From: Chitinophaga sancti
Lineage (GTDB): Bacteria > Bacteroidota > Bacteroidia > Chitinophagales > Chitinophagaceae
DNA: 64,000 nucleotides
NCBI RefSeq assembly: GCF_034424315.1
Contig: NZ_CP139972.1
Coordinates: forward strand, 3,534,001 to 3,598,000
Direction of reading: 5' to 3'
Below the pieces are notes generated by a model. The model was not told the DNA's origin and searched no databases. It saw nothing but the letters and a program-made list of their open reading frames with translations. The position numbers and the translations under genes were made by a program. Shown here one piece after another: positions 6,832 to 33,529 of the stretch; position 1 is the first letter of the stretch; each line of letters begins with the position of its first letter.

Positions 6832-9123
6832 ATGAAAAGATCCTTATATATACTGGTATATATTTGCCTGCTGACGGTGGGTGCTGCCAGCAGGTCTTAC
6901 GGGCAGACTACCTGTACATGTAATTGCCTGAAGCCCGTATTTGATTATCTGATAGAGTCTAATAAACTGTTCACTTATACAGCTACAAATCAGATACTGA
7001 TTTCAAAACTCATTTCAGATGCAACAGCTGCTGGTCATACTGTTTCGGCAAGCAGTTGCGATATCTTGAATGATAACAAAACCGGCTATTTTTACAACCT
7101 TACTACAGCGACTACAGGTACTGAAGTAAAACTGAAATTTGGCGGTTGTTCTGTTTCCCTGAAATCAACATCAGGTAAGTCAATCGATTTTTTGAATATG
7201 ATCGGGGCCGCTTGCGACAACTCAGGGCAGGTGTCTTATATAAAAGGTCCGGTACGTGTACATAAGCGACTGGACGTAACAAGATCACTGGTGATATCAA
7301 AAGTGACTAGTGCATCCCCTCTTTTTCCTACCGCTACAACCTTTCCTGCATATTTCGTGGATTCTACCTCTGAAAGTTTAAGAATAGGGTTTTCATCCAA
7401 TTACGGGAAAACAGGTGGCTTCAATATAATGAGCAGGATCGCATTTGATAGTGCGAAAGCTGCCATTCCTGATGAGGCGATCATCGTTGGTGCACACCTT
7501 CATGTCTTTGCTTATCCTAGTGGTTTCATGCCTCCCTATTATCCGAATGCACACTTGCCAACAACGGCCTGTTCAGGGTCCAGTGTATTTGTGTTCAGTA
7601 GTAGTACATTCACTTATTCAAAAGATCCGGCAACATTGTCTTTCCCTGGTGGTTGGGGTGATGGGCAGGCAATTTATACAACGACCCCAAGTGATGATGC
7701 GTCCTATAACATGACCAATTTTTGTACAAATTCATATGGTGGCATATATGATAACTCGGCGTTTGACAAAGGGATGGTGATGTTCCAGGCATCCTGGAAA
7801 ACTATCCATTCCCCGGTAGATACTGTTACGCAGTATCATACTTTTTGCTCTGAAAAATACCCGGATCCCAGCAAACGTCCTTATTTAGACCTGGTATGGA
7901 CTACAAACCAGCTTGATACTGTCACCATTGCGAAAATATATATAGACACCTGTACCGTTTGTAGCACAGTTAATTCATATAACTGTTATAGTGCCATTAC
8001 AGATACCAGTGTCAATCCTTACAGGTATGGTATTCAGGGTAACTGGCGCCCACTCCGGTCCTTTGTGTATTACAACGCCCGTAACGGCGCTGCTATCAAT
8101 AGCAATACAAACATCCGTACAGATGGTACCATCAGCAATTTCAGCAACTTCTGGCACTTCTCTGCTACAGATAGTACATGGCAGCCGCAGGATACTGCGA
8201 CTTCCAGATGGGTATGGAATACAGAAAGCACCCTTTTCAACAGGAAAGGTGCTGAAATGGAAAATAAAGACCCATTAGGCAGGTACAATTCCGGATTGTA
8301 TGGTTATCGCGATGCATTGGCTACAGCAGTAGCTCAGAATGCACGATACAGGGAAATAGGATACGATGGATTTGAAGATTACAAGTACGTAGGTAATAGT
8401 TGTGACAGTGTTTGTTCAGTGCCACGCAATTTCGATTTCTCTGCTTACGAAAGCTATTTTGATTCAACCATACAGCATACAGGTGCCTATAGTCTTCGTT
8501 TGGATACGGGTAAGAGTGCAGGTATCGTAACTACCATTTCAGGTACTGATGATCCTGACTTTGTACTCACTTATAATACCGGAACCAATAGCTGTAGCAG
8601 CAGTACCAATGTACTGAAGGGCATCAAAGCTGGTAAAGAAACCCTGTTACCATCTTTCTCACCGATCACAGGAAAACAGTTAGTGGTGAGTGCATGGGTA
8701 AAAGAAAGCGGACAGTGTGATGGTGTCACTTACACAGGTAACCGTATCAATATAGTGGTGACCCGTAGTACCGGAGACACTTCTATACTGGCTTATCCTT
8801 CTGGCAACATCATAGAAGGCTGGCAGCGTATTGAGCAGGTGGTGACTCTTCCTGATGGTGCTTCCAAAATGACGATCAATATGCAGAATATTGGCACTAA
8901 CAAGGTGTACTTCGATGACCTGCGTATACATCCGTACAATGCCAATATGAAGTCATTTGTCTACAATGCAGAAAGCCTGCGTATCATGGCAGAGCTGGAT
9001 GAGAACAATTATGCTACCTTCTATGAATATGATGATGATGGTACCGTGATCCGTGTGAAAAAAGAAACCGAAAGAGGCATCATGACCATCAAGGAGGCAA
9101 GAAGTGCATTACACAATGAATAG
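6832..9123 (+). CDS. Secreted RHS-accessory protein with carbohydrate-binding-like domain
   Basis: This 763-residue protein starts one base after the previous stop, indicating translational coupling. It has a clear signal peptide (MKRSLYILVYICLLTVGAA..SYGQ). The mature N-terminus is Cys-rich (TTCTCNCLKP). Residues about 530-700 resemble a jelly-roll carbohydrate-binding domain: a SYFDSTIQHTGAYSLRLDTG strand pattern, then VVSAWVKESG, then a terminal VYFDDLRIHP. The last 60 residues (MAELDENNYATFYEYDDDG, then ERGIMTIKEARSAL) are the YD-like tail common at the ends of Bacteroidota RHS companion proteins. No enzyme motif is visible. The position between shell and RHS genes suggests a structural or adhesion subunit, which is inference. 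Confidence 0.6.
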   Translation: MKRSLYILVYICLLTVGAASRSYGQTTCTCNCLKPVFDYLIESNKLFTYTATNQILISKLISDATAAGHTVSASSCDILNDNKTGYFYNLTTATTGTEVKLKFGGCSVSLKSTSGKSIDFLNMIGAACDNSGQVSYIKGPVRVHKRLDVTRSLVISKVTSASPLFPTATTFPAYFVDSTSESLRIGFSSNYGKTGGFNIMSRIAFDSAKAAIPDEAIIVGAHLHVFAYPSGFMPPYYPNAHLPTTACSGSSVFVFSSSTFTYSKDPATLSFPGGWGDGQAIYTTTPSDDASYNMTNFCTNSYGGIYDNSAFDKGMVMFQASWKTIHSPVDTVTQYHTFCSEKYPDPSKRPYLDLVWTTNQLDTVTIAKIYIDTCTVCSTVNSYNCYSAITDTSVNPYRYGIQGNWRPLRSFVYYNARNGAAINSNTNIRTDGTISNFSNFWHFSATDSTWQPQDTATSRWVWNTESTLFNRKGAEMENKDPLGRYNSGLYGYRDALATAVAQNARYREIGYDGFEDYKYVGNSCDSVCSVPRNFDFSAYESYFDSTIQHTGAYSLRLDTGKSAGIVTTISGTDDPDFVLTYNTGTNSCSSSTNVLKGIKAGKETLLPSFSPITGKQLVVSAWVKESGQCDGVTYTGNRINIVVTRSTGDTSILAYPSGNIIEGWQRIEQVVTLPDGASKMTINMQNIGTNKVYFDDLRIHPYNANMKSFVYNAESLRIMAELDENNYATFYEYDDDGTVIRVKKETERGIMTIKEARSALHNE

Positions 9124-9140
9124 TTAAAACTGATTTATAG

Positions 9141-9878
9141 ATGAAACGTCTAATTATAGTAAGCCTCCTGTTGACCTGTGCAAATGTGTTGTTTGCCCAG
9201 AAGGTGGATGGGCTGGATGAAGCGATCAATGCGATAAAGTCGGTAAGAGAAAGTGCCGTGCCCTATGGCTTTGAGATGAAATATAGCTATGCCAATGAAA
9301 GCAAGCCCACTGTATTACTTGACTCTTTGAATGGAGCTATTGTCATAGCTGGTAAAAATTACTATTGCAAAATGGATAGTACAGAAACCATTAGTAATGA
9401 CAGGTACAATATTGTATTGTTCCGCGAGGATAAGATTATGTATGTAGGGGCTGCCAGGTCCGATAATACAGAGGATCCGATCGGGCAGATGCAGGGTGTG
9501 TTGGAAAAGTCCGGCGCGAATAGTTGTACGACTACCTATTGTGGTACAAAGAAGATCATCAATGTGGGATTTGCGGCAGGGGGTGCCTGTAAACAGCTGA
9601 AAATGGTGATTGATACTGCAGCACGTCATATGTTATCTATGGAGTACCTGATAAAAACGGCCATGCTGATAGATGCTCCTGATGCGGAGGCAAGAGTAGC
9701 TGGACAGGGGTATGATGAATACGCGGTGGTCAATGCCAGTTTTTACAACTATCATCCGTTTAATAAAGATACAGCATGGTTTAATGAAAACCAGTTCTTT
9801 TACAAAGAAGGAAGTGAATATAAACCAGCACCTGCATACAGAGAATATCAGATCGTATTGGCTACTCCTAACCTTTAA
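9141..9878 (+). CDS. Secreted hypothetical protein of the RHS operon
   Basis: This 245-residue protein has a signal peptide ending at LFAQ. The mature part is a mixed alpha/beta protein with no family I can name. Four Cys residues cluster in the middle (NSCTTTYCGTKK and GGACKQLK), suggesting disulfides. It lies 17 bases after the preceding gene and ends 9 bases before the RHS gene, so it is surely co-transcribed. Possible roles are periplasmic chaperone, assembly factor or secretion adaptor for the RHS toxin; none is shown by sequence. Confidence 0.55.
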   Translation: MKRLIIVSLLLTCANVLFAQKVDGLDEAINAIKSVRESAVPYGFEMKYSYANESKPTVLLDSLNGAIVIAGKNYYCKMDSTETISNDRYNIVLFREDKIMYVGAARSDNTEDPIGQMQGVLEKSGANSCTTTYCGTKKIINVGFAAGGACKQLKMVIDTAARHMLSMEYLIKTAMLIDAPDAEARVAGQGYDEYAVVNASFYNYHPFNKDTAWFNENQFFYKEGSEYKPAPAYREYQIVLATPNL

Positions 9879-9887
9879 TGAAATAAG

Positions 9888-12800
9888 ATGCAATCATTGC
9901 TAAGACTGTTTGTATTGCTACTGCTGCTATCGATAGCAGGCAGCAGTTTTGGACAGCGTACCACGGTACTGAAAAACGTACTTGAAGGACCAAAGGTGTC
10001 AAAAGATGCTACCCTTCAGGTAAGGGATTCCATCCTTATTGCCGATGTAAGTCGTTTGGATATACCCTACCCGGTAAAGAATATTGTCGTTTTTCATATC
10101 GATGAATATGCAAAAACACTTTTACCGGATTCGTTTACAGCTACACTGAATATCCGTGTCATTTACCTGCGTCCTGATCAGCAAAAGGATTCGGTAGAGA
10201 CTGCCCTTACTATTAATTATAAAGATAGCGCGGCTTATACCAGCCGGAGTAGCTTTGTCTTTAACAACTCTCATGATGTAACTGTACGGATATTAGGATT
10301 GTCTGTGAGCAATGACAGTGCCTTAGTCAGCAAATCGTTATTGCTGAAAAATGAAATGGATGTACATGCGGTATACAAATTAAATTGTACAAATGATGCG
10401 GTGCAGCATGTATATATAAAAACAACCGTCAATACAGACTCTACGGATGAGTTGTCTGTACACTGGGATGAGATCACAGGTGCAGATCTCTACGATCTGG
10501 AATGGACCTTTGTCGATTCGTCCGCATTAGGCACCAAAGATCAATTGTTCCGTAACAATTGCAGCAGGGTCACCATCCCTGGTAATAGCTACAATATCCC
10601 ACTGATGTACGATGATGGAGGTGTTGTCTATTTCCGTGTGAGAGCAGTGCAGGTAAGAGATAATAATAGTAGGATGGAAACCAGCTGGAGTGATAACTTT
10701 TCGGGTGGCTTGGGGTCCTATGCATTTGTAGGGCATCAGCGGGCATTAAACTGGCAATCGGCTGTGACATTCTCGGAGGAGGGGAAAAGAAATGTAAGCG
10801 TCACTTATTTTGATGGTAGTATGCGTAGCCGGCAGACGGTGCTAAAGGATAATACTACGAATACAACAGTTGTAAGTGAAACGATGTATGACTATCAGGG
10901 TCGTGGTGTGATTGATGTAATGCCGGCACCGACATTGAATACAGTGATTAAATATTCCCGCAATTTCAATCGTGGATTGAATGGAGTAGCATACGATAAA
11001 GGGCAATATGATACGTTACCTTCGCCTGAGACTTTTCTCTCAGCAGCGGCAGCACAAATGTCTAGTGAGAGTGGTGCGAATCAATATTATTCTGCTAATA
11101 ATCAGCAAAAAGATCTGGGTGTGAACCGTTTCATTCCGGATGCAGAAGGGTATGCATTTACAGAGACAGTTTATACACAGGATAATACTGGTCGCGTCAG
11201 CAGGTTAGGTGGAACTGGGCCTACATTTAGAATAGGCAGTAACCACGAAACCAAATTTTATTATGATTCACCGGGAGAAAGTGACCTTGATGTGTTGTTT
11301 GGTACTGAGGCGGGTTGTCACAGTCGTTATTTCAAGAATTCATTAGAGGATGCCAATGGACAGATGAGGGTGGCTTATACTGATATTCATGGGCGTACAA
11401 TAGCTACTGCATTGGCAGGTACACCAGACAGTGCCCAGCTGGAAAATCTGGAGTCAAGTACAGGGTTTATAGTAACAGATACGATCTCAGGTAATACGTT
11501 AAAGGGAACGTCTTTGGAGAGTGTACATAGTCAGCTGGTGGTGCAGAAAGGAAATCATCATTTTCATTATGCATTGATGCCACCAGTGTTTAAGAAAAAG
11601 GATTGTGATAGTAACGTGGTTTGTTATAATGGGTTGTATGATCTGGAGATCATGATCACAGATGATGTATATAATCAGCATCTGGGAGGTAAGGCATTTG
11701 ATACGATCTTACATAATTACAATGCTGATTCAATTGTTCCTAATTGTAGTCCGGATTCCTTTGTAGTTGATTTTAATATTGTACTGGAAAGAGGTAGTTA
11801 CCAGATTACGAAGCGACTGACGGTGAATGAGACAGCCTTGTCTTACTATCGTGATAGTATCTTCATGGTACGTAACATGTGTAGTTCACTGGATACATTC
11901 ATTGCACAGCAACATAATCTGCTGGTTAGTTTGACTTGTGTGCCTGATTGCCAGACGTGTCTGGATAGTTTAGGGACGTGGGATAGTTTCAGAGCTAAAT
12001 ATATGTTACGTGCGGGGATAGCGGATAGTGATTCCGCTTCTTACCGTAGTGAGGCGCAGACGGCTTATAATGATGCTTTTGTGTCTTGTGCGGCGTTGTG
12101 TGGTACGACTTCACCAGTGGATGAGATGAAGGATGAGATGGAACAGGATCTGGCGGCACCATCTGGTCAGTATGCGAATGTGGATGACTCCACAGATATA
12201 TATTCTATCTTTTATCATAAGGATGAGAATACATTGCCTCCTTATAAGAGAGATACTGTCACTTACCTGAATGAGAACGGTAAAGTGGATAGTGTCTATG
12301 ATGATGCAGTGGGGACTTATGTATTGCCGCAGGATCTGTCTTCGGCTACCTTCTCAGATAAGTTCAAACCGTCCTGGGCAGCAGCGTTGCTGAAGTTTCA
12401 TCCGGAGTATTGTCGTTATTTGGAGTATCAGAAGTATGCAGGTAGTTTAGCATGGGACAGGGTATTCGAAGCGGTAGATACTTATGAGGAAGCCCTTGAT
12501 TCAGGATATTTGAATCCAATGGGTAGCAGTAGTTTTCCATTTACGATAGTAGCTGCACATAAAGATCCTTTTGCTTCAATGCAGCCAACTTTGCTTTCCA
12601 GTGGGTTATCTAATTATTCTCAAGGCACAGGCAACAATGCATTGTCTATGTACAGTGTAGCTACGGCGACCTTAAAATGTACAACGAATGCTTGTATTGC
12701 TAAGTACAACACGCCGGCGTTGGCATTTAATGCTAGTAGCATGTGTACAGGAGATCTGGATATGGCATGGCGTGCATTTAGACAATTATATTTAGCCTAT

Positions 12801-15800
12801 AAGAATCACATCATAGATAGCCTTGTACAAAAGGCGACCTGTACGGGTTATCCAACCGCCCAGACATTAACGAATGCTGGTAAAGTGGTTCATTTTACGG
12901 ATCAGCAAACGGCGTATAATAATAGCGGGATCAATTATATCGCAGGTGGTGATACTGCAGATATCCGGACCCTTACTAAGTCTTCCTTGTCAGAAAGCTA
13001 TGCAGCGAATTGCCAGAGTTATGTAGAGGCGTGGATGAATCAGCTGATGGCTTGTACCTATTATGTAGATACGGCAGCCTTAAGAAGTAATCTTATTCCA
13101 CAATTATTACAAATCTGTAAAGATGGAGCAGATGAGGATCATGTGATGGGAGCCAGCACCGGCAGACCTTTAAGTCTCTCTTCCCGTTATGGCCAGACGT
13201 TTGTGAATACGATCCTGTCCTATAATGAATCACTTGGAATTACAGATACGTTGATGTGTACGGGGTATCTGATAGATGCGCCGTTGCCATATGACCAACA
13301 GCGGACTTATGGCGATAACAGGACTTATACAAAGCCAACGGATTGTGAATGTAATAACCTGCATTTACTTGAAAAAGAATATGAGACTTATAAAAAGTCT
13401 ACCGATGGTAGTTTTACAGCTTACCTGAATCGTACTCGCGGAACCAGTTTAACAACCAGCCAGATGGATGCATTGCTGACAGCGTGTGCGAATAAGAATG
13501 AAGATTGTGACTACTCAGCCACACAATTGGTGATCCCTGCCTTGATTCAATGTGGACCAGCGCCATCCTGTACAGACTGTGCGATCTTTACGATCCTATA
13601 CAACAGTTATACCAGTGCGCATAGCTTGATGATGCCATCTTACGAAGATGAAGACTCTGTACAGCATCTTAAGAATGAGTTATTTGCTTCCTATATGAAT
13701 AATGGTCTTGGTTACAGCAAAGAAGCGCGTGAATACCTTGCTTTCAGAGATAGTTGCGCCGTATTGAAGTCCATGGACAGCGTAGTTTGTACGGCCTATG
13801 CTCCAGGTAGTGCGATTCATACATACGGAGAAAATACTTTCTTTGAAGACCTGATCATTACCTCCGATGGTGGTTATTTAATGGCAGGTAAGATGGTCGC
13901 TGCAGTGGGCGACACGGATGCAGTGTTAGTGAAGACGGATGCCGCAGGTACACTTCAATGGGCGAAACGCTATGGAGCCAGCAATACGAATTACTTAACG
14001 AAGGTACGAGCGACCAGTGATGGAGGATACATAGCAATAGGTACCAGCAATAAATCAGTGCTGCTCATCAAGATGACGAGTACAGGTGCACAAAGCTGGA
14101 CAAAGACCCTATCTTATAACACGCAATACGGCGAGAGAGGCGGTGATATTGTTCAAACGAGCGATGGTGGGTATATAGTAGCGTTGAAATATAACATTGG
14201 TAACACGGTCGCCGATGCTGAATTAGTGGCCCTGAACAGTAGTGGTACGACCTTATGGGCACATCGTTATGGTACGAACTCAGGAGAAGAAGGGTATAGT
14301 CTCACGATGAGCGGAGATACAGTGAACCTGTTAGGTTGTACATCAGGTATGGGAATTGCGTTCAGGACCTTCCTGATGAAGATAGATCGTAATACGGGTA
14401 GTATATTAACCAGCTATTTATTTTACGATACATATGAAGGAGATGGAGGTAGTTACTCAGGTCATTTATACAACACACCTACAGGTCATCTGATCAATAT
14501 GTCGTTCACGAGTACGAAAGCAGGAGGAGGAAGTGCGGACCTTGTAGCCGGAGTAGATCATGACGGCAACCTGACTTTTACCCAGCAATTTGGTAGTCCT
14601 GTAAATGGAGCAACTTCTACACAATGGATGCCGATCGTTCCATCTTCTGATGGTGGTTATGTGAGTGTCCAGAACATAAAGACGAAACCACAGGCGGTAG
14701 TTTGGGAGAAGGTTGATGGGAACAATAGTCTATTGTGGTCAGAACTGATCCGTGCGGGCGACTCCACTGAAATGCGGGCAGTAGTAGAACGACCAGATGG
14801 AGGATTTGCGGCAGTAGGTGGTTTGGGAAGCAAAGGTATGTTGATGCTGACCTTGGGAAATGGAAAGGTAGGCTGTAGTGATAGTGTGTTCACCAACAGT
14901 TATTCAGATGCTCCAATAGCAGAGGAATATCCTGAAGTTTGGGCAGTGGATGTGGATATGACGAGCAGCACAAGCTGGAGCAGTGCGAGCTTTACAGAGA
15001 ATTCATTTACTGCAAGCAACTCAGTAGTAGACTGTCGTAACTGTTACACCGTTCACAGTGGACCATTGTTATGTGGCAATGCCGTATCTGTGTTCCCAAC
15101 GATCTCTCTGGATAGTACCGACAACTGTAGTGACAATGAATTCTTTGCAGTCAGTAAGGGTACAGAGTTATATACAGTGTATCGTGATTCGCTGTTAGGC
15201 AGCTTTGGCAAAGATTACCTGACCATGGCACTTGAAGTGAAGGAGCGCTTTACTGTAACCTATAACAATAGTGAATACAATTACACTTTATACTACTACG
15301 ATCAGGCAGGTAATCTTGTAAAGACGGTACCACCAGCCGGTGTGGTGGTGAATCGCACAGATAGCTGGTTGAATAGTGTAAAGGCAGCAAGAGCAGCAGG
15401 CACCGCATTGGTTCCTGATCATAAAATGGTAACTCAATACAGGTATAATACATTCAATCAGGTGGTCATGCAGTCAATACCTGATCAGGGCATCACCTAT
15501 TTCTGGTATGACAGACTGGGTAGACTAGCATTCTCACAAAATGCTAAGCAACTTGCTGAAAATAAATACACCTATACTACTTATGATGCATTAGGCCGTA
15601 TTTCAGAAGCAGGAGAGTTGACCAGTGCAGCACCTATGACAGACTTCATTTGTCGTGACACCACTCAACTGAATGCATGGATGGCGACTGCAAGATCTTC
15701 AAGGACACAGATCATCTCTACCAGTTATGATCATGCTTATACCGCATTGTCCGATTTATACCTTACGGCAAAGAACCTGAGGAACAGGGTGTCATGGACA

Positions 15801-18395
15801 GCCGTGTTTGACAATGCAGCCGCACAGGATAATATGCAGTTCACTACTGCCAGTTTCTATAGTTATGATTCACATGGTTTTGTGGATACCTTGCTACAGG
15901 ATTATAAAATAGGTAGCATGCAGCAGGCACAAAACCGTTTCAAGAAGGTTGTCTACAGGTATGATCTCGTTTCAGGAAAACTCAATTCCGTAGCCTATCA
16001 GCCGGGTGCTTCAGATGCTTATTACCACAGGTATACCTACGATGCACTGGATCGCCTGACGAACGTCGAAACCAGCCGTGACAGCATCTATTGGGAAAAT
16101 GAAGCATTCTATCAATACTACAAACATGGAGGTATAGCAAGGGTTGTCCTGGGCGAAGAGCAGGTACAGGGGCTTGATTATGCCTATAATTTGCAGGGAT
16201 TGCTGAAAGGCCAGAACAGTACAACTGCTACAGCAGCAATGGATATGGGCGGGGATGGAAGCAGCGGTAGTATGGTGGCAAAAGATGCATTTGGGTTTGC
16301 ATTACATTACTACGGAGATCGTGATTATAAACCCATTAGTGGATTAAATATCTTTGCTTCAGCTCCAGGTCTGAATCCTTTATTTGATGGTAATATTTCA
16401 GCGATCAGTCAAACCATCCCTACCATAGGTACATCCTTATTATCCAATTATAGTTATGACGTGCTTTCCCGGATGACGGGTATGCAGGTTTCCAAAGGAT
16501 TAAATACAACAACCAATAGCTGGACACCTGTGGCATTGGATGATTTTAAAGAAAAGGTGACCTATGATGCCAATAGTAATATTTTGAAGTATCTTCGTAA
16601 TGGTAATCACTCCTTAGCTGGTACACAACTCAGCATGGATTCACTGACATACCATTATAAGACAGGCACTAACAAGCTGGATTTCATAAATGATTCAGTT
16701 CCCGCCGGCAATTATGCTGAGGATATAGATGCACAATCTGCAGGCAATTATGCTTATGATTCCCTTGGTAATATGATAGCGGATAAAATTAGTGGAATTG
16801 ATAGTATTCAATGGAATGTATTTGGTAAGATTGCCCGTATTAAGAAATCCAACGGTGCAGTTATTTCCTATACATATGATAATGCCGGTTATATTGTTTG
16901 TAAAACTGTCAACAAGAAAGAGACGTGGTATGTACGGGATGGTTCCGGGCATGTATTAAGCATTTATTCCAAAAGAGATAGCGCTGTGAATAATGGTGAC
17001 CTGAGCCAGACGGAGATCCATTTGTATGGAGATACGAGACTGGGTATTCATCATGTAGACCTGGATGTACAGGTGCCTGCATCATTACCAACGGTAAATA
17101 TGACTGGTTTGGGCAATGGTATAAGCATAGACTTTATCCGTGGCAGAAAGGCGTTTGAACTGTCCAATCATTTAGACAATATACTGGCATCAGTTTCTGA
17201 TCGTAAGATAGGGGTGTCTACAGATGGTAGTGTGATAGATCATTATGAGCCATATATTTTATCAGCACAGGAATATTATCCATATGGTATGACGATGCCG
17301 GGTAGGAGTAATAGTGTGGATACATCCGGATATAGATATGGATTTAACGGGCAGGAGAAGAATAATGATATCAATGGTAAAGGTAATAGTTACACTGCAG
17401 AGTTCTGGGAGTATGATCCGAGAATAGGGAAGCGTTGGAATCCTGATCCTATCATCAATGTGTCAGCCAGTCCATATTCCGTGTTTGATCAGAATCCAAT
17501 AAGTAGGATCGACCCTGCGGGTGCACATAATACTGACTGGTATGCGCGAAAGAATAGCGATAAGAGTATTTCACTGATCAATAAGAGTGGCGAGCATGAT
17601 GCAGAGAAGAGTATCTTAGACCAGAATTATGTGAATGTGGGTGAAGATAATATTTCAGCAGAAGCCGCGATGAATAATGCCCAGAGTTATTTCCAGGAGG
17701 CAACTGTATTGACGGGTAATTATAAAGGAAATGTTCATGCGAATTTTACGGGGTATTTTAAGATCAATGAGCAGTTGAGTTATATGAATCCTGATAGGTT
17801 CGCGACTTCGCCATTGACTTATAAGAATATTCTATCTGATCCCCGGTATGCATGGATAAAAGTGGCCATTAGTCAAATTGGTAATGAAGAACAGGACAAG
17901 GGCGATAATCCGCAGATCACTCAGTATCACCTGGTCGGATGTGGTTTGAAAAATACGTATGAAGATACTTACTGGTGTTCCTCTTTTGTAAATTACTGTT
18001 TAGCAGTAGGGAATCCTCAAGTAATAAGATCTAAGAGTGCTGCTTCCAGAGTGTGGTTTTTACAAGCCTCAAAATGGGGATTAGAGCGGGTACAAACGCC
18101 ATATTATGGTTCTCTGATGGTTCGGAAAGATAATAATTATTGGGATAAAGACGATAGTGGAGGAGGGCACGTGTCAATTGTTATTGGTAAAGATGACGGT
18201 GCTTTTGCACAGCTTGGAGGTAACCAAGCAAAACCCGGTTCACGAACAGGAAATACCGTAAATGTTGTACTAAGACGAAGGAAGGATAACGTGAGATATT
18301 ATCATTTTATCTGGTTACCTAAAATTCCATTAGGTCCGCCGTTGGCTACACCTGCGACGAAAAAAGCAGAGGAACAAATGGGATTGGATAAATAA
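9888..18395 (+). CDS. RHS-repeat toxin with C-terminal Cys/His amidase-like domain
   Basis: This 2835-residue protein has a signal peptide (residues 1-22, SSFGQ). In order it carries an Fn3-like segment (about 170-265), a long Cys-rich helical region (about 660-1300), SDGGY-type propeller-like repeats (about 1310-1660) and RHS/YD repeats (about 1790-2460). The RHS-associated core (about 2463-2545) has YYPYGMTMPGRS, FNGQEKNNDINGKGN and PISRIDPAGA. Residues 2548-2835 are the variable toxin tip. Its WCSSFVNYC (Cys2697), GGGHVSIVIG (His2761) and LGGNQ (about 2776-2780) match the TIGR02594/CHAP-like peptidoglycan hydrolase pattern. The likely target is cell-wall peptide bonds of competitors, which is inferred from the fold. 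The next gene is the immunity candidate. Confidence 0.85.
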   Translation: MQSLLRLFVLLLLLSIAGSSFGQRTTVLKNVLEGPKVSKDATLQVRDSILIADVSRLDIPYPVKNIVVFHIDEYAKTLLPDSFTATLNIRVIYLRPDQQKDSVETALTINYKDSAAYTSRSSFVFNNSHDVTVRILGLSVSNDSALVSKSLLLKNEMDVHAVYKLNCTNDAVQHVYIKTTVNTDSTDELSVHWDEITGADLYDLEWTFVDSSALGTKDQLFRNNCSRVTIPGNSYNIPLMYDDGGVVYFRVRAVQVRDNNSRMETSWSDNFSGGLGSYAFVGHQRALNWQSAVTFSEEGKRNVSVTYFDGSMRSRQTVLKDNTTNTTVVSETMYDYQGRGVIDVMPAPTLNTVIKYSRNFNRGLNGVAYDKGQYDTLPSPETFLSAAAAQMSSESGANQYYSANNQQKDLGVNRFIPDAEGYAFTETVYTQDNTGRVSRLGGTGPTFRIGSNHETKFYYDSPGESDLDVLFGTEAGCHSRYFKNSLEDANGQMRVAYTDIHGRTIATALAGTPDSAQLENLESSTGFIVTDTISGNTLKGTSLESVHSQLVVQKGNHHFHYALMPPVFKKKDCDSNVVCYNGLYDLEIMITDDVYNQHLGGKAFDTILHNYNADSIVPNCSPDSFVVDFNIVLERGSYQITKRLTVNETALSYYRDSIFMVRNMCSSLDTFIAQQHNLLVSLTCVPDCQTCLDSLGTWDSFRAKYMLRAGIADSDSASYRSEAQTAYNDAFVSCAALCGTTSPVDEMKDEMEQDLAAPSGQYANVDDSTDIYSIFYHKDENTLPPYKRDTVTYLNENGKVDSVYDDAVGTYVLPQDLSSATFSDKFKPSWAAALLKFHPEYCRYLEYQKYAGSLAWDRVFEAVDTYEEALDSGYLNPMGSSSFPFTIVAAHKDPFASMQPTLLSSGLSNYSQGTGNNALSMYSVATATLKCTTNACIAKYNTPALAFNASSMCTGDLDMAWRAFRQLYLAYKNHIIDSLVQKATCTGYPTAQTLTNAGKVVHFTDQQTAYNNSGINYIAGGDTADIRTLTKSSLSESYAANCQSYVEAWMNQLMACTYYVDTAALRSNLIPQLLQICKDGADEDHVMGASTGRPLSLSSRYGQTFVNTILSYNESLGITDTLMCTGYLIDAPLPYDQQRTYGDNRTYTKPTDCECNNLHLLEKEYETYKKSTDGSFTAYLNRTRGTSLTTSQMDALLTACANKNEDCDYSATQLVIPALIQCGPAPSCTDCAIFTILYNSYTSAHSLMMPSYEDEDSVQHLKNELFASYMNNGLGYSKEAREYLAFRDSCAVLKSMDSVVCTAYAPGSAIHTYGENTFFEDLIITSDGGYLMAGKMVAAVGDTDAVLVKTDAAGTLQWAKRYGASNTNYLTKVRATSDGGYIAIGTSNKSVLLIKMTSTGAQSWTKTLSYNTQYGERGGDIVQTSDGGYIVALKYNIGNTVADAELVALNSSGTTLWAHRYGTNSGEEGYSLTMSGDTVNLLGCTSGMGIAFRTFLMKIDRNTGSILTSYLFYDTYEGDGGSYSGHLYNTPTGHLINMSFTSTKAGGGSADLVAGVDHDGNLTFTQQFGSPVNGATSTQWMPIVPSSDGGYVSVQNIKTKPQAVVWEKVDGNNSLLWSELIRAGDSTEMRAVVERPDGGFAAVGGLGSKGMLMLTLGNGKVGCSDSVFTNSYSDAPIAEEYPEVWAVDVDMTSSTSWSSASFTENSFTASNSVVDCRNCYTVHSGPLLCGNAVSVFPTISLDSTDNCSDNEFFAVSKGTELYTVYRDSLLGSFGKDYLTMALEVKERFTVTYNNSEYNYTLYYYDQAGNLVKTVPPAGVVVNRTDSWLNSVKAARAAGTALVPDHKMVTQYRYNTFNQVVMQSIPDQGITYFWYDRLGRLAFSQNAKQLAENKYTYTTYDALGRISEAGELTSAAPMTDFICRDTTQLNAWMATARSSRTQIISTSYDHAYTALSDLYLTAKNLRNRVSWTAVFDNAAAQDNMQFTTASFYSYDSHGFVDTLLQDYKIGSMQQAQNRFKKVVYRYDLVSGKLNSVAYQPGASDAYYHRYTYDALDRLTNVETSRDSIYWENEAFYQYYKHGGIARVVLGEEQVQGLDYAYNLQGLLKGQNSTTATAAMDMGGDGSSGSMVAKDAFGFALHYYGDRDYKPISGLNIFASAPGLNPLFDGNISAISQTIPTIGTSLLSNYSYDVLSRMTGMQVSKGLNTTTNSWTPVALDDFKEKVTYDANSNILKYLRNGNHSLAGTQLSMDSLTYHYKTGTNKLDFINDSVPAGNYAEDIDAQSAGNYAYDSLGNMIADKISGIDSIQWNVFGKIARIKKSNGAVISYTYDNAGYIVCKTVNKKETWYVRDGSGHVLSIYSKRDSAVNNGDLSQTEIHLYGDTRLGIHHVDLDVQVPASLPTVNMTGLGNGISIDFIRGRKAFELSNHLDNILASVSDRKIGVSTDGSVIDHYEPYILSAQEYYPYGMTMPGRSNSVDTSGYRYGFNGQEKNNDINGKGNSYTAEFWEYDPRIGKRWNPDPIINVSASPYSVFDQNPISRIDPAGAHNTDWYARKNSDKSISLINKSGEHDAEKSILDQNYVNVGEDNISAEAAMNNAQSYFQEATVLTGNYKGNVHANFTGYFKINEQLSYMNPDRFATSPLTYKNILSDPRYAWIKVAISQIGNEEQDKGDNPQITQYHLVGCGLKNTYEDTYWCSSFVNYCLAVGNPQVIRSKSAASRVWFLQASKWGLERVQTPYYGSLMVRKDNNYWDKDDSGGGHVSIVIGKDDGAFAQLGGNQAKPGSRTGNTVNVVLRRRKDNVRYYHFIWLPKIPLGPPLATPATKKAEEQMGLDK

Positions 18396-18417
18396 AATTA
18401 CATTTAAAAATAAAAAG

Positions 18418-18822
18418 ATGAAATTACTAACCTCTTTTGTCCTGATACTTTTTATAACTGTATCAGTCAGATCTCAGGATCAGAAAACTTTGATATTAAA
18501 TCAGTTGAAAGAAAAGAAAATAGATTCTGTGCTCCTGAATTGTGATCTGCCTTTTACCTTCAGTGGGCTTTCTGTGAAAGGAGAAGAAGTGATAAAAGAC
18601 AGGAATCTGTTGGCTAATAGAATTAAGGATTTGGTGAAGCGTAAGTATTTTGACCAGTATTTTGCATCAAGTGATGTAGAAAGGCATAGAGATGAGGTAT
18701 TCTTTACAAAACGCAGCTTTGATTCAGATGGGGAACTGGAGTCGGAGTATGGTTTAATCTTTGCTTTTAGAAAAGGGAAAGATGGGAAGTTGAAATTGTG
18801 GCGGATCAGAATGGCAGGATAA
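18418..18822 (+). CDS. Candidate periplasmic immunity protein for the RHS amidase toxin
   Basis: This 134-residue protein lies 22 bases after the RHS toxin gene and is the last gene before a terminator. It has a signal peptide (MKLLTSFVLILFITVSVRSQ), so it acts outside the cytoplasm, which fits protection against a peptidoglycan-cutting toxin. The mature part is charged and alpha/beta (LSVKGEEVIKDRNLLANRIK, then a beta C-terminus LIFAFRKGKDGKLKLWRI). I recognise no named immunity family. The immunity assignment rests on position, size and matching compartment. It could instead be an unrelated small secreted protein. Confidence 0.65.
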   Translation: MKLLTSFVLILFITVSVRSQDQKTLILNQLKEKKIDSVLLNCDLPFTFSGLSVKGEEVIKDRNLLANRIKDLVKRKYFDQYFASSDVERHRDEVFFTKRSFDSDGELESEYGLIFAFRKGKDGKLKLWRIRMAG

Positions 18823-19555: not shown

Positions 19556-20353
19556 TTAATCGATTGATGAGAAGATTGTCTTTCTGTTTTTCAACCTAAA
19601 GCTCTCCCCGTTCAATTTCAATATTTCACATCTATATAAAATTCTATCAAGGATAGCTGTCGTAATAACTTCATCTCCAATCGTTTCAGCCCACTCTTTT
19701 GGCGATTTATTAGTAGTGATGATGAAGGATGTTTTCTCATGGAGCATATTGATAAAATGAAAGAATGCATTCGCTTCATTCCTGGCAATATCGATCATCA
19801 TGATATCGTCGATAACGACCAGGTGGGCCTTTTGCAGGCGTTTATAGTCAGCCATGGCGGGTTTAGAGATGTCTCTTGTTCTGAGCATGGTCATAATTTC
19901 ATCCATAGCTCTAAAATAGGCCCTATAGCCATTTTTGAGGGCATGATGGCATAGCCCCGCAGACAGGAATGATTTCCCGATGCCGTTTGGACCGAGGACA
20001 ATTAGATTAAATTTCTGATCCAGCCAGGTCAATTCTTTCAGTTGTTCAAGTCGGGAAGCAGGCATTCCTTCTACCAGTGAGCAATCATATTCCTGAAGAT
20101 TATGGGTGATAGGCAGACGGGCCTCTTTTGTTTTACGTTCCATATCTTTTAGATTTCTGTGTTGGATCTCAATGTCCAATAGCTTTTCAGCAAATTCCAG
20201 ATAACTAATTCCTTCAGCAGAAGCGTTATCTGCTATTGACTCAACCTGAGACCCTATTGCGCCCAGCCTAAGTTGTCTGCAATGCCCGCTAATCTTTTCT
20301 TTTGATTTCATATGCTTTTGATTATTAAATATAAATAAGGGTAGAGTGAGCAT
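19556..20353 (-). CDS. istB: IstB transposition helper ATPase (IS21 family)
   Basis: This AAA+ ATPase is the partner of IstA and assembles on target DNA to direct IS21 transposition. Walker A is GPNGIGKSFLSAG. Walker B is HLVVIDDIMM. A sensor-like IITTNKSPKEW follows. The listed ORF is 265 residues, but the more likely start is the ATG at 20311 (MKSKEKISGHCRQL), giving 251 residues, close to the usual IstB length of about 250. The gene lies downstream of istA with a 25-base gap before the longer start. It appears complete. Confidence 0.93.
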   Translation of the reverse strand: MLTLPLFIFNNQKHMKSKEKISGHCRQLRLGAIGSQVESIADNASAEGISYLEFAEKLLDIEIQHRNLKDMERKTKEARLPITHNLQEYDCSLVEGMPASRLEQLKELTWLDQKFNLIVLGPNGIGKSFLSAGLCHHALKNGYRAYFRAMDEIMTMLRTRDISKPAMADYKRLQKAHLVVIDDIMMIDIARNEANAFFHFINMLHEKTSFIITTNKSPKEWAETIGDEVITTAILDRILYRCEILKLNGESFRLKNRKTIFSSID

Positions 20354-20378
20354 GCATGCTCACTCTACCCTCACCGGT

Positions 20379-21953
20379 TTAACTGTTAAAAATCTTTTCA
20401 TAATCACCCAGATCCCTTTTGTCTGGCTGTATAGCCGCCTTTCTGGTGCTATTAGGATCTAAAAGAATAATTTTCCCTGTCTGGGCATATTCTTCCTTAT
20501 TCTCCTGCTCATGCATCTTTAAAAGATCTCTGAAGACAATAGCACTGGCATACTTCTCCCTAACACATTTCTCCAATACCTTATCATAGGTTTTTTGATC
20601 ATGCTCCAGAATGGCCTCCCTGATAGCTAATAACTGATCTCTCAGATATCTGGCTTTTTGTTCCCGGATCATTTCAAAAAATTTGATAGCCAGAGACCTA
20701 TCGGTAAACATTGCCGCAACCTCTTCCATCAAAACATTCAGCTTTTGAGATTTATCTCTTTTATGATCGCTATTGATGATTTTGTTGCCTTTACTATTTG
20801 CGATACTATGTTTACACAAAAACTCGTCCTGCTGGCTATAGACATGCAATTCATTTTCTTTGCGATAGATTTTGACCTCGACATCCTTCTTGTAGGTTCC
20901 CTGGGGCACTGAATAAAAATTACCCTCAAGCGAAAATGTATTATCTTTCCTTAAGTACCGTAAAATATAAGCTGGCTTGTTTTTTACCGGCATCCATGGC
21001 TTTAAATAACCCTGTTCGATGTCCCATTCGGCAAAAGGCACTTTTCTTGTGGTGGAATGTGCTACCCCATTTCCGGTTCGCGTCAACCACCCTAAGACCT
21101 GCTGCTGAAGGGTTTCTATGTCATAATAGACCCTGCCATATAAGAAGTTTCCTTTTACATATTTCACGACATTTTCTATTTTGCCCTTACTTTCCGGATC
21201 ACTTTTTCGGCAAAAATGAAGGCCCAGAGCCTGTTCACGTACATAAGCTTTAAATTTTGAAGTAAGCAACAAATCACCTATTTGCTCATTAGACAACAAT
21301 AGTTTATCCTGGTCATAAACCAATTCAGCTGTAATCCCATTAAAATACTGGAATGCAGCTTCATGGGCATTGATAGTGGTGTCTGTTGTAAAAGGAATGG
21401 ATGAGAAGTAGACATATTTCATCCGGGAGCGGGATAACATCATGGTGAAGAAATGCACTTTCTTCTTTTTTGCCTCACTGTTCCGAAGATAATACTCTCC
21501 AAAGTCGGCTTGTGCCTGTTGACCATAGGGTAACTCCTCTACTACAAAGTATTCCCTCTCGATGGTTTCTAACGGAATGTTGTACTTCTGCCGGATACCC
21601 ATTACATAGTTGTAAACTGTCTTGGGATTCAACCGTGGCAGATCCTTATAGTGTTCTTTAAGCCAGTCTAACATTTGCGCAGCACTGGCTCCAGGAGCTG
21701 CTATCAGTCTTCCTTTTACAAAGTCTTCGTATTTGTCCAGAACTTTCGGGCGGCTATTCTGTTTTATCAGGAACTCTTCGTACTCCGATTCACTCATTGC
21801 TAAATACCGGGCTATGGTGCGTCTATCGCATACTGCGTACTTTGCTATGGCTAAATTACTTAGCCCCTCCCTTGCCAATCTATGAATTTCATGATACATG
21901 ATCCAATTACTCATTGTCTTTTTATCCATTTTACCCTCTTTGATGTAGAGCAA
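20379..21953 (-). CDS. istA: IstA transposase (IS21 family)
   Basis: This 524-residue DDE transposase has an N-terminal helix-turn-helix (HEIHRLAREGLSNLAIAKYA..RRTIARYL). The rve catalytic core shows the first Asp in QAQADFGEY, the second in LVYDQDKLLL and the Glu in DPESKGKIENVVKYVK. A C-terminal beta-barrel-like region (NTFSLEGNFYSVPQGTYK) follows. The start is probably the listed ATG, or the MDKK eight residues later. The length is normal for IstA. It lies directly upstream of istB, and the right-end repeat array sits in its promoter region. Confidence 0.93.
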   Translation of the reverse strand: MLYIKEGKMDKKTMSNWIMYHEIHRLAREGLSNLAIAKYAVCDRRTIARYLAMSESEYEEFLIKQNSRPKVLDKYEDFVKGRLIAAPGASAAQMLDWLKEHYKDLPRLNPKTVYNYVMGIRQKYNIPLETIEREYFVVEELPYGQQAQADFGEYYLRNSEAKKKKVHFFTMMLSRSRMKYVYFSSIPFTTDTTINAHEAAFQYFNGITAELVYDQDKLLLSNEQIGDLLLTSKFKAYVREQALGLHFCRKSDPESKGKIENVVKYVKGNFLYGRVYYDIETLQQQVLGWLTRTGNGVAHSTTRKVPFAEWDIEQGYLKPWMPVKNKPAYILRYLRKDNTFSLEGNFYSVPQGTYKKDVEVKIYRKENELHVYSQQDEFLCKHSIANSKGNKIINSDHKRDKSQKLNVLMEEVAAMFTDRSLAIKFFEMIREQKARYLRDQLLAIREAILEHDQKTYDKVLEKCVREKYASAIVFRDLLKMHEQENKEEYAQTGKIILLDPNSTRKAAIQPDKRDLGDYEKIFNS

Positions 21954-28576: not shown

Positions 28577-29035
28577 TTATTTAAATTTCCAGTCTCGAAG
28601 CAGACTATCCGCTTGCCAAGGCGAAATAGTATCTCTTATCGTCCCCGTATAATCATTATATACATAAACCTTTGTATTACTCTCATCATAGAAACTAAAA
28701 ATCTGAAGCCCGTCATTTCCTCCTTCCCTGCGTTTCAATATATCATCCTCTTCTACCTTTATCTTCCCATTTTCAACTACGACCAACTTCATCCCCCTAA
28801 ATACATCGGTACTTGTATCCTTTGCTTGTGGGAACCATGCTTTTGTATCTCTTACCTTATCATTCGTAATCCAGTCTTCCTGTAGTGGGAGTATACCCCG
28901 TTTCTCTCTTTCTGCGTTATATCGTGCATCATACTGACCCGATGCAGCAAAAAATCTATACCAGAGCTTCTGGGAAGATAAAACAAGTACCAGCAAAAGA
29001 ATAAATAAAACTATCTGAATGACACGCTTCTTCAT
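28577..29035 (-). CDS. Membrane-anchored immunity candidate for the second RHS toxin
   Basis: This 152-residue protein has an N-terminal transmembrane anchor (VIQIVLFILLLVLVLSS) followed by a soluble, charged domain (LVVVENGKIKVEEDD, YDESNTKVYVYNDYTG). It lies 9 bases after the RHS gene stop and just before a terminator, the standard place for an immunity gene. The anchor suggests the protected site is the periplasm or membrane. No named family is recognised. Confidence 0.6.
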   Translation of the reverse strand: MKKRVIQIVLFILLLVLVLSSQKLWYRFFAASGQYDARYNAEREKRGILPLQEDWITNDKVRDTKAWFPQAKDTSTDVFRGMKLVVVENGKIKVEEDDILKRREGGNDGLQIFSFYDESNTKVYVYNDYTGTIRDTISPWQADSLLRDWKFK

Positions 29036-29044
29036 CTGTTAAAA

Positions 29045-32000
29045 TTAATGCAAAAAGAGGTTTGGTATATAAAATACAACATTATATAGCATTTGCTGCA
29101 TCTTTCTTACGGTTGGAGATGGCTCATCATGGGGTATCGGATCTACAAAACCATCATCTACCTTTAATATCACAGGTACGGTATTCGGCACCAGTTTACT
29201 TGATGTAAAGGTGATGGCGCCATCTACACTTCCTACACTTAATGGTCCTAATGCAGTCATTACCTTATCCAGTTTAAGGCTTGAAAAACTTTCAGCGGTT
29301 CCTGCAAAACCCCATGGAAGCGCAGAAACACCTAAGATAAACACCATATCTGTACGAGCATCTCCCAAAACATACTGATTATACTGCATACCATTGTCAT
29401 CCCTGAACTTCTCCATTTCCGTAGTATATTTATTCAGCAGGCTTAAATCCTCTCTTGAATTGGCTTGTGAAGTTTCAGTCCTTGAAACAGGTGTAACCGT
29501 TTTTACTGCGTCTTTACCATCTGTTTTCGTCGTGGTCACCGTTTGTACGGTGGTTACAACATTACCCTTTTGCGTGGACATATTTGGATCAGGGGATACG
29601 ACATTTGAAGTAGATACAGTCGTCACTGTTTGTGTGGTGACGGTTGTATTGCCGGACCTGGTAGTTACGGGCGCACTCTTCGTAATAGTGGTACTATTTA
29701 CTTCCAGCCTTTCATGCTCCCGCAGGGTCGCACTCACAATTGTCATAGGAAGACCTGGGCCCGACACACTACGCCCATCCGGATCTATATATTTTATCGG
29801 GTTATTCAATGCATAAATATAAGGGCTGACATTGTTATAGTCAGTTGCACGAGGGTCTATCACTTGCCATCTGCCAATTTGTGCATCATACATTCTTGCT
29901 CCAAAATCATATAATTCCTGTCCGCTACCATCACTAAGCTCATTACGCTGTAACTCTTTGCCGTTAAATTTCATTCGGTTTGTGGCGTAATCAGTTCCTT
30001 TTAATGCATTGGCACTGATCGCTTCCATTGTCAAACCAAAAGGATAATAATGTGTCTCTTCCAATAATGGGCCACTGGAAACATTTACTGACAGGTTATC
30101 AAAATAAACATCCTGCTGTGTTTCATTACTCTCATAAACATATAGGAAACCAGTCGTAGACATTACCATAGGGGCTACTTCCAGATCCTGGAGCTCATCG
30201 GGAGCTTTTTTTACCTGCCTCACACCAGTATTATTATCTACCAGCGAAAAACCATCATCAAAGAGCGCAAAATTAAGGTATGCTTTAGGGCGATCCGGTG
30301 TACGTGCTGCCTGATCTTTTTCTTTCTGACGTTCAAAAGTATTATAGTAGTTGTTGTTAAAGCGGCTACCATTTATTGATCCACCAGCACCATGTCGGCT
30401 ATTATCTATACTTCCCCCAAAGGCATTAATCAATCCGGCTAAGACTTCATCCGCTACAGCATCTCTCCCCTTATCCGATGGTCCATCCGATTTATAAAAA
30501 GCACGCGTTTTTATCCGGATCGTATCTCCTGCCATTACACGCAATACGAGTGAAGGCCCAATGATCTTACCTCCTGGTTTCGAATTCAATTTTGCTACAA
30601 AGTTATTCGTTTCCGTCGTGTTATCTGCCGGATAACCAACAGGCTTCTCAGTCCTGGTTTCTTCTACATTACTAAACAAAGCAACTTCCTTCTCTGCAGC
30701 TGCCGTCTCCATTGTAGCAGCATACATGCTAAAATCATTTTGCTCTGTTAATACCATTCGCACATTCCCTAAATAATCTTTTTCAAAGTAATCATAGTAA
30801 TAAGTTGGAGGTTGTCCTGTAACATACACCGGCCTGATACGTCCTTCATCATGACTAACAAATTCCTGCAAATCCTGCTGATATACAAACCCACCGATAT
30901 AATCAGTTACTGTTGTCTTAGGCGCACTACCCGTATTATCTACAACCGTCTTTTTCAGTTTTATACCACCTGCATCATAAAGATAGGTAATTGTACCTTT
31001 GGTACCCATTGTGACAACGGCAGGGAGATTTAGATAATTATATGTGATATTGGTAACACCCTTGTTTTTATCCATCAGCATATTGCCATTCACATCATAA
31101 CTATAATCATCTCCTGATTTATTCAAATCCTGAAAATCGCCAAGTTTAGCAGAAGCATTGACAATAGGATCTGTTACTGCCAGCAGTTTATTGCTTTCAG
31201 ACTTATATCTGTATGTCAACTGGTCCATTATGCCAGGTGTCGTTCCTGCTACTCCCTGCTGATTCATGGTGATGATATTTCCATTGGCATCATAGGTAAC
31301 ATTTGAAACAGAGAAGTCCATGGTGTTTTTCGTCCATGCAGCCCCTGTCGTATTTTGTTGACTGAACTCAGCGCCTAAAAGCCTGTCGGACTTATCATAA
31401 GTATAACCGTAGGCTCTTGCAATACCATTGCTTCTACTCTTCCATTTTGTACCTGCAATATTGCCAGCATATTCAGCTTTTGTAAAACCATAATCGTAAT
31501 CCAGCTCTTGCCCAAACCAATTTGCCTGGCCACTGGCCTCGTTTACATAATCTTTGTTTATACCAGCAATCCAGCCACGCACATTATAGGAATAATTTAA
31601 TATATCCAGTGGTGTAGTGCCTGTTAAACCAAGTTTCTTCTGTATTAGTTGTCCCAGCTCGTTATATGCATATGTGGCAATAGTTTTATCTTTTGAAGCA
31701 TCTCCATTCAACCTCTTTTTCACATTCAATAACCTGTTTGCATGATCATATTCATACATACTCAGGATGGTTGTACGCGGAGTGGCCGTGCTTTTGGGAT
31801 TGGTATGATTCAAATACCGGCTTAGGATTTTTCCACTGAAGTTATATTGTGTAGTCACAATATCTTTCCCTCCAGTTATATTATCAGCAATGGTTTGTAT
31901 CACACGTCCTTTATCATCATAATAATTAGTGATGGTAAGCCATTTGTCAGTACCTAATACCCTTATCCGGCTACCGGTAATACGTCCTGTAGTCAGGCTA

Positions 32001-33529
32001 CTTCCGGCTGATGAAACAGGATCATCATACAGATTATTTCCTTTAAATAAGTTGGAGGTTTCGCTACTAACATAATTGAATTTACCTGTATAATTATAAT
32101 CATCGTAGAAGGTATATGTAAGTGGAGTAAGATCTTCCGACCCGATACCCGGCAAGCTATTAGTCGCAGGGATGGTAGTATTTCCACTCTTGCCATTAGC
32201 GTCTATATATGCTGTATATTCTCCCGATGCTTCAAAACCTGGCAATAAGGTAATAGAATTTGTTGCTACTGAGCTGGCCTGATTTTCATAATTATATAAT
32301 ACCAGGTCTGTTTCTGCCGGGAAATCATAAGATATATTTTGATTACTAGTAGATGCTTTCAGCGAGGCTTGTAAATTATCTGCGCTCAAAGTTTTCTTAT
32401 AGATAGCCGTCATGATCGGACGATCCAGGTTATCATAAAAGGTGGCTGTAAATTCAGCCGGGGACTTTGCTCTTTGTACCCCATCCTGTGTAAAGGCTAT
32501 TCTGTCCCTGTTGTCGTAGATCATACGAATAGCAGCGGCACCCGGTACTTTTTTACTGATCATGAGTTTATGACCATCATATGCATATTGAAAACACAAC
32601 TCATCTGCAATTGTAGAGAGGGCCTTTCTTAGCAGGATTGTTTGGTCTATGGCTGCGGGTGGAATTACAAAGGCTAAGTTGTTATAATTGTCAAAAACAT
32701 TGTAGGTACATAACCAGCCTACATGCCCTGTTCCTGTTGATGCTGCCACCTGTACCTTTTTTAGCACCACATTGCCTTCCTTATCTTCGAATTCTATTGT
32801 CTGGTTGCCAGCCTCATTAATGGTGATGTTCTTCTTTAGCGATCCCGGCTGATAGTCAGCGGAGCTAACAGGTATTCCCCCACTCATGGTCCATAACCTT
32901 ACAGAATCGGTGGCAATATTCGTTTCAAAGCGGTGTTCTACAGGGTGATTGCCACCTTCGAGTGCCCAGCTGTTACCCATAGCATATTCTTTCACAATCC
33001 TATCCAGGGGAGACCCATCAAATGCCTTTCTGGAATAATAGATATTCTCTCCTGTCATGCCAGGTATCAGCGTACCATTTGAATAAAAGAATTGCTGTGT
33101 AGAGAAAGGAGCTAGCTTAAAATTGCCTGAATTATCAGCTTGTTGTACATAAGGCATATAAGTAAGCGCTTCTCTCCCGAGGTCATCATAGATAACAGGT
33201 TCTACCAGATCATAGCTACTTGCGCTGACTCCTTTTGACACCTTTTCAAGCGGCCTGCCCAAACCATCATAATACTGAGTGCTCTGTTTTACATCCCTGG
33301 GTACACTTGCACCTGTAATTACAGCAGCGGGGTCTGTAATCGGTTTTGATGGCTCCCAGGTACGCACGAAGTTAATGATAGGGCTATTGCTATATGCAGC
33401 GGGTAGGGCTACAGGAGTGGCATTGGTACGTGTGATAGTAGCAGGCGTTTGTGCATGAAGGGTTAAGCCTATTGCCAACAAGGGCAATAACCAAACGAGC
33501 TGTTTATTATTTATTCGAATTATTTTCAT
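29045..33529 (-). CDS. RHS-repeat toxin (second locus) with unassigned C-terminal domain
   Basis: This 1494-residue protein has a signal peptide ([14 protein letters not shown]). The N-terminal DUF6443-like module ([34 protein letters not shown]) is followed by RHS/YD repeats and an RHS core with [28 protein letters not shown] and YIDPDGR (about 1250). The tip (about 1254-1494) starts with Thr/Val-rich repeats ([15 protein letters not shown]), then a hydrophobic stretch ([16 protein letters not shown]) and a short beta region. No catalytic motif is evident, so the activity is unknown; membrane damage is possible. A membrane-anchored small protein follows. Confidence 0.85.

Follow-up and report, generated by a model that had tools for sequence, protein, structure and literature searches.

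What does a large RHS/YD-repeat protein of Chitinophaga sancti carry at its C-terminal end, and does the small gene directly behind it protect the producer? The two genes lie in a 64,000-nucleotide stretch of the genome (the window: contig NZ_CP139972.1, positions 3,534,001 to 3,598,000, forward strand), where a first-pass annotation, made from the letters alone, had described open reading frames (ORFs) at 9888-18395 (2835 residues) and 18418-18822 (134 residues); both are present as described (Table 1). The answer that we favour, at a probability of about three in four and on the strength of sequence comparison, is that the pair encodes an exported polymorphic toxin that would cut peptidoglycan, together with a periplasmic immunity protein. 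The RHS protein would be exported by Sec, as its signal peptide suggests, and its RHS/YD part would serve as a carrier shell, as is established for the family. The tip that follows the DPAG motif could be a thiol peptidoglycan hydrolase using Cys2697, His2761 and Asn2779, as homology and conservation suggest, and would attack a rival's wall at its stem-peptide or amide bonds. The 134-residue protein would be exported as well, because the toxin crosses the producer's periplasm and has its target there, and would bind and block the tip in that compartment. Tip and immunity gene would travel as one cassette between RHS genes, as a displaced copy in a second genome supports.

The RHS protein itself has the build of a polymorphic toxin. 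Its Sec signal peptide, recognised by eye, spans approximately residues 1-22 with cleavage before Q23; profile scans place DUF6443 close to the N-terminus and the RHS repeat and core toward the end, the core scoring 29.7 bits in the protein scan against a cut-off of 32.5, and 36.1 bits in the genome scan. An export signal (by eye), RHS repeats, an RHS core and an exchangeable C-terminal tip, the features by which RHS polymorphic toxins are recognised, are all found. The first-pass annotation began the tip at 17530, which is out of frame, the codon of residue 2548 beginning one base earlier; its residue numbers are correct, with Cys2697, His2761 and LGGNQ all in frame.

The tip resembles enzymes that degrade the cell wall. 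In NCBIfam, the last 304 residues of the RHS protein match TIGR02594 (E value 1.5e-17, 64.2 bits; 65.7 bits for the trimmed domain), and the trimmed domain matches CHAP (PF05257) at E 1.3e-4 and 22.8 bits, each score lying below the curated cut-off of its family. CHAP is also matched at E <= 1 by six of the seven members of the tip alignment (best 5.1e-6), and the PHROG matches of the tip are to a tail lysozyme (E 1.4e-15) and an endolysin (E 7.5e-6). A Pfam scan of the same 304 residues gave no match, and PADLOC gave a chance-level match to the tip only. We judge the resemblance to TIGR02594/CHAP hydrolases to be beyond chance, though divergent. The TIGR02594/CHAP-like Cys/His tip that had been proposed from the letters is thus upheld in its relatedness and in its conserved Cys-His(-Asn) residues, but not to the level of either curated cut-off.

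Conservation points in the same direction. A protein-database search with the last 304 residues yielded six relatives, and the W-C, G-H-V and LGGNQ signatures are invariant in all seven sequences, tip included; the search using the tip at full RHS length returned only the protein itself at E <= 0.001 (520 candidates). TIGR03696 identifies three of these relatives as RHS tails; a GH19 fusion is seen in one of the six. Eighteen more distant relatives were drawn from other genomes, and in the resulting HMMER alignment of 19 rows the single exception in the His and Asn columns is a row that is unaligned there. Among eight of these distant relatives scanned with Pfam, three carry PG_binding and two are DUF4280 fusions, and one distant relative sits, by eye, in a possible prophage lysis region. 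TIGR02594-like matches in 13 other genomes (best E 3.5e-7 to 7.7e-4; ORFs of 149-311 residues) include two DUF4280 fusions and no RHS tail. Peptidoglycan is well supported as the predicted target of the tip because its relatives include phage lysin families and GH19 or PG_binding fusions, and because the predicted catalytic residues are conserved.

What, then, is the small gene? Its product begins with what is evidently a Sec signal peptide (MKLLTSFVLILFITVSVRS/Q, judged from the letters): hydrophobicity averaged over 11 residues peaks at 3.0 for the stretch starting at residue 7 and does not exceed 1.3 anywhere from residue 21 onward. The signal-peptide-bearing neighbour of the first-pass annotation is therefore found in the sequence, both as a gene and as a hydrophobic leader, and the statement that it matches no family is borne out in NCBIfam, Pfam, PADLOC and PHROGs, none of which gave a significant match. 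A hydrophobic leader recurs in the members of the small-gene family (seven computed, and the copies of genomes G010 and G025 by eye), and three members have, by eye, a lipobox-like Cys. An NTF2/SnoaL fold, suggested by the sequence pattern, was tried and found no support in profile comparisons: one of seven family members matched SnoaL_2 at E 0.042, below the cut-off, and the HH-align comparison of the family with the SnoaL_2 proteins of the window's genome gave a probability of 0.1.

The pairing of tip and small gene is best seen in Chitinophaga genome G010. There, an open RHS frame of 2898 residues is 47% identical to the window's RHS protein over window residues 8-2610 and bears a different tip. 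Downstream of it, four places match the RHS core, in five ORF pieces altogether, and one of these core fragments runs into the window's tip, now split across frames (54%, 41%, 46% and 60% identity) and followed after about 20 bases by the small gene, itself in two frames. A search of this genome located the tip once and the small gene once. Two genomes thus each have one locus at which the small gene directly follows the tip, in the window's genome on an RHS body and in G010 as a displaced cassette, and the recurrence of the two side by side in G010 supports their linkage. The decay of the G010 copy may be what is expected of an unused module. This layout is not unprecedented: orphan rhs-CT/rhsI modules, in which a displaced tip and immunity gene lie behind a full-length rhs gene, are described for Dickeya and other bacteria in the relevant part of Poole et al. 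(2011, PMC3150448), with tip and immunity cassettes that begin at a DPxG-type motif. The difference, as far as that account goes, is that the pair here is exported, in Chitinophaga, and that its displaced copy has decayed. G010 would provide a natural displaced-cassette case of tip-immunity linkage in Bacteroidota.

The small-gene family is narrow, being found only in Chitinophaga in the searches made. A profile search recovered nine loci in 8 of 79 genomes of the genus, with Chitinophaga silvatica and Chitinophaga sp. E66 among the carriers, and a less complete search recovered the gene in two of 294 family-level genomes, both Chitinophaga; because the profile searches across family, order and phylum scored no more than 14, 11 and 8 candidates per genome, respectively, absences in them carry little weight. 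The relatives are 24-36% identical to the window's 134-residue protein, and the protein-database search with that protein returned only itself at E <= 0.01 (18 candidates), a word-based search that missed relatives at this identity. Ten further genomes with matches at E 0.0015-0.055 were dropped as noise; six of these, within the genus, were not recovered by the profile, and one (G085) had no match in the family-wide search. The contexts of the nine loci are diverse. The gene directly follows the window's RHS tip in its own genome and the copy of that tip in G010; on contig 1 of G064 it is one of several small genes lined up behind an RHS gene and a fragment of an RHS core; and in G043 it lies among small genes 1.4 kb from a contig end, too close to it for RHS linkage to be judged. 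At L046:5203-12259, a run of approximately ten small membrane-protein genes, paralogous-looking by eye, includes one family member and is possibly a polyimmunity locus.

Several results weigh against an exported toxin-immunity pair. At the other five of the nine loci (G055, G058, G025, G075 and G064 contig 2) no RHS core was found within about 10 kb (phmmer with the window's core at E 1e-3, about 10 kb fetched on each side), and in G055, G058 and G025 the small gene adjoins a Na_Ca_ex antiporter gene, the G025 copy carrying an internal stop. The tip was not found at E 1e-3 in the six genomes that hold the small gene without the pair. The same-order pair rests on only two loci, and in G010 both cassette members are broken, so that this copy bears on linkage and not on function. 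The tip falls short of the curated TIGR02594 cut-off of 70.55 bits and of the CHAP gathering cut-off of 26 bits, and neither the tip nor the 134-residue protein has a meaningful sequence match in the PDB, by single sequence or by profile. It had been reasoned beforehand that widespread homologues of the small gene without RHS neighbours would speak against the pair: this is borne out in part, five of nine loci being RHS-free, although the family is narrow in the searches made. The proposed toxin-immunity pairing accordingly gains from the linkage that recurs in G010 and loses from these RHS-free loci.

How else could the locus be read? The RHS-free loci, three of them at the same Na_Ca_ex-linked place, would suit a tip that is a wall hydrolase for the cell's own growth, for gliding or for feeding on dead cells, with a housekeeping gene as its chance neighbour. 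We regard this as improbable: in two genomes the tip is followed directly by the small gene, at a live RHS end in one and in displaced form in the other, and for a family this rare elsewhere (8 of 79 genomes carry it) two such adjacencies are unlikely to be chance. Orphan immunity genes are, moreover, a known outcome in such systems, as described for rhs modules (PMC3150448). A papain-like domain could also act on the RHS protein itself, as a processing peptidase that frees or trims it, in which case the tip would be no toxin and the small gene a modulator or unrelated. Releasing peptidases of this kind are indeed listed for polymorphic toxins (PMC3482391), but the tip is the final domain, with only about 55 residues after it; among its relatives are GH19 and PG_binding fusions as well as members matching families of phage lysis proteins and tail lysozymes; and in G010 it lies displaced jointly with the small gene, all of which makes this reading very unlikely.

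A third possibility retains the pair and changes the mode of protection: the 134-residue protein could act other than by blocking the active site, for example by shielding the wall. This would be in keeping with a protein to which sequence and profile comparisons assign no fold, but most immunity proteins known for polymorphic toxins bind their toxin, and we hold it unlikely here. The reading of the pair as a wall-cutting toxin and its periplasmic inhibitor is the one that we retain. As for its novelty, the weapon is of a known type and the protector comes from a small unnamed family, so that the "new toxin/immunity pair" of the first-pass annotation is new, to the libraries searched, in its immunity half only. 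With this pair, the RHS toxins of Bacteroidota would gain a tip directed at the wall and an exported immunity family that has no name yet.

Comparable domains occur in other weapons. TIGR02594-domain type VI effectors are reported in Stenotrophomonas (PMC13055248, PMC13340143); in the portions of these papers that concern them, they share with the window's tip a TIGR02594-type domain that belongs to an effector predicted to act against bacteria, and in PMC13055248 also the C-terminal position of that domain and a small immunity candidate gene nearby. They differ in being VgrG-linked, in a type VI cluster, one with LysM repeats, whereas the window encodes a Sec-exported RHS protein; the VipB type VI sheath had no match in its genome, by a Pfam model that may miss type VI systems of Bacteroidota. 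The table of Zhang et al. (2012, PMC3482391) lists Tox-NLPC/P60 for RHS-linked toxins of Bacteroidetes and gives no immunity family for it there. Tox-NLPC/P60 is a papain-like Cys/His domain, as the tip may be, but its third residue is given as D where the tip has N, a comparison by description only. The same source describes Imm65, a Bacteroidetes immunity family with a signal peptide and lipobox, which the small-gene family resembles by description only and which differs in its partner, Tox-JAB-1. The literature searched, which most subscription journals lie beyond, held no paper on the Chitinophaga tip/small-gene pair.

TIGR02594 domains also stand behind DUF4280 in two other Chitinophaga genomes (G042 and G011), with 89.2 bits, above the cut-off, in the one scanned. 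We take DUF4280 to be PAAR-like, as an IglG match weakly suggests. The gene that follows these DUF4280-TIGR02594 genes encodes, by eye, a small protein with a leader, a parallel that speaks for the window's pair; it has no Pfam family in the one scanned, and these small proteins were not matched by the small-gene family searches. An Amidase_3 gene lies upstream of the DUF4280-TIGR02594 gene at L006. The DUF4280-TIGR02594/CHAP proteins of L005 and L006 are candidates for another wall-targeting effector.

Table 1. Features of the window that bear on the RHS toxin and its neighbours
Feature	Position	Strand	Remarks
PA14-domain protein gene, 2100 residues	528..6830	+	likely first large gene of the RHS operon
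763-residue protein gene	6832..9123	+	signal-peptide-like start; recurrent LolA3/RHS neighbour
LolA3-family gene	9141..9878	+	NF053579, 210.5 bits (cut-off 83); directly upstream of the RHS gene
RHS/YD-repeat protein gene, 2835 residues	9888..18395	+	N-terminal Sec signal peptide, DUF6443, RHS repeat, RHS core
RHS-associated core, TIGR03696	17274..17522	+	ends near DPAG, where the variable tip starts
Variable C-terminal tip, residues 2548-2835	17529..18392	+	alignment with the G010 RHS protein stops at residue 2610
TIGR02594/CHAP-like peptidoglycan-hydrolase domain, residues 2655-2781	17850..18230	+	
Cys2697 codon (WCSSFVNYC)	17976..17978	+	predicted nucleophile; 7/7 close relatives, 19/19 distant rows, tip included
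His2761 codon (GGGHVSIVIG)	18168..18170	+	predicted catalytic base; 7/7 close relatives, 18/19 distant rows
Asn2779 codon (LGGNQ)	18222..18224	+	predicted third catalytic residue; 7/7 close relatives, 18/19 distant rows
Candidate immunity gene, 134 residues	18418..18822	+	Sec signal peptide at about residues 1-19; starts 22 bases past the RHS stop

How such a toxin would leave the cell is a further question, on which the genes upstream may bear. From strand and spacing, the genes from the 2100-residue protein through the RHS protein likely form one operon, and its LolA3 gene is not peculiar to the window. LolA3 is matched in 25 of 40 Chitinophaga genomes, in 24 of them above the cut-off, and 30 of the 36 matches, the window's own included, were examined as loci: a homologue of the RHS N-terminus lies within 1.5 kb in 22 of them and a homologue of the 763-residue protein in 23. 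Seven loci have neither flank; four of these (L100, L101, L102, L124) adjoin, by eye, a homologue of the 2100-residue gene, and three (L097, L098, L105) adjoin no RHS, 763-residue or 2100-residue homologue. Across a sample of the phylum, with no more than seven candidates scored in each genome, LolA3 is matched in 8 of 395 genomes (six above the cut-off), and both flanking genes are present at six of the seven loci outside the window's own genome, the remaining one (L132), whose LolA3 score is below the cut-off, having neither. The window's genome has five LolA3 copies, three with both flanks within 1.5 kb (L121, L133, L135). In Bacteroidota, RHS operons of this type repeatedly include a LolA3 gene.

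In the periplasm, LolA3 may serve RHS toxins as their dedicated carrier. For LolA3 itself, the pertinent passages of PMC11885536 and PMC13103446 report no clear function: its deletion in Flavobacterium johnsoniae leaves gliding and amylase secretion unaffected, and Porphyromonas LolA3 binds LolB very weakly. The words rhs and toxin do not occur in the main texts of these two papers. The gene's position could offer a way into the question of how Sec-exported RHS toxins get out of the periplasm, and suggests a possible role for LolA3. It is tempting to combine these elements into a Bacteroidota-type delivery operon of which the pair would be one warhead: the Sec-exported RHS toxin would have its own LolA-like carrier, by which it reaches the outer membrane, and the 134-residue family would be the first to give immunity against TIGR02594/CHAP-type RHS tips, its orphan copies guarding toxin-free cells; we put this forward tentatively, as a scheme that is conceivable and more doubtful than the pair itself.

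Just downstream of the tip/small-gene pair lies an IS21-type insertion element (19556-21953, minus strand), with an IstB match and, in the neighbouring ORF, an rve/Mu-transposase match. Further along, a second RHS gene of 1494 residues (29045-33529, minus strand; RHS core at 29774-30049) bears a different tip, and behind it a 152-residue gene (28577-29035, minus strand) has a hydrophobic start, the two being a candidate second toxin-immunity pair. The genome as a whole (G000, 8.4 Mb) has 18 RHS-core matches at E <= 1e-5, a large RHS arsenal.

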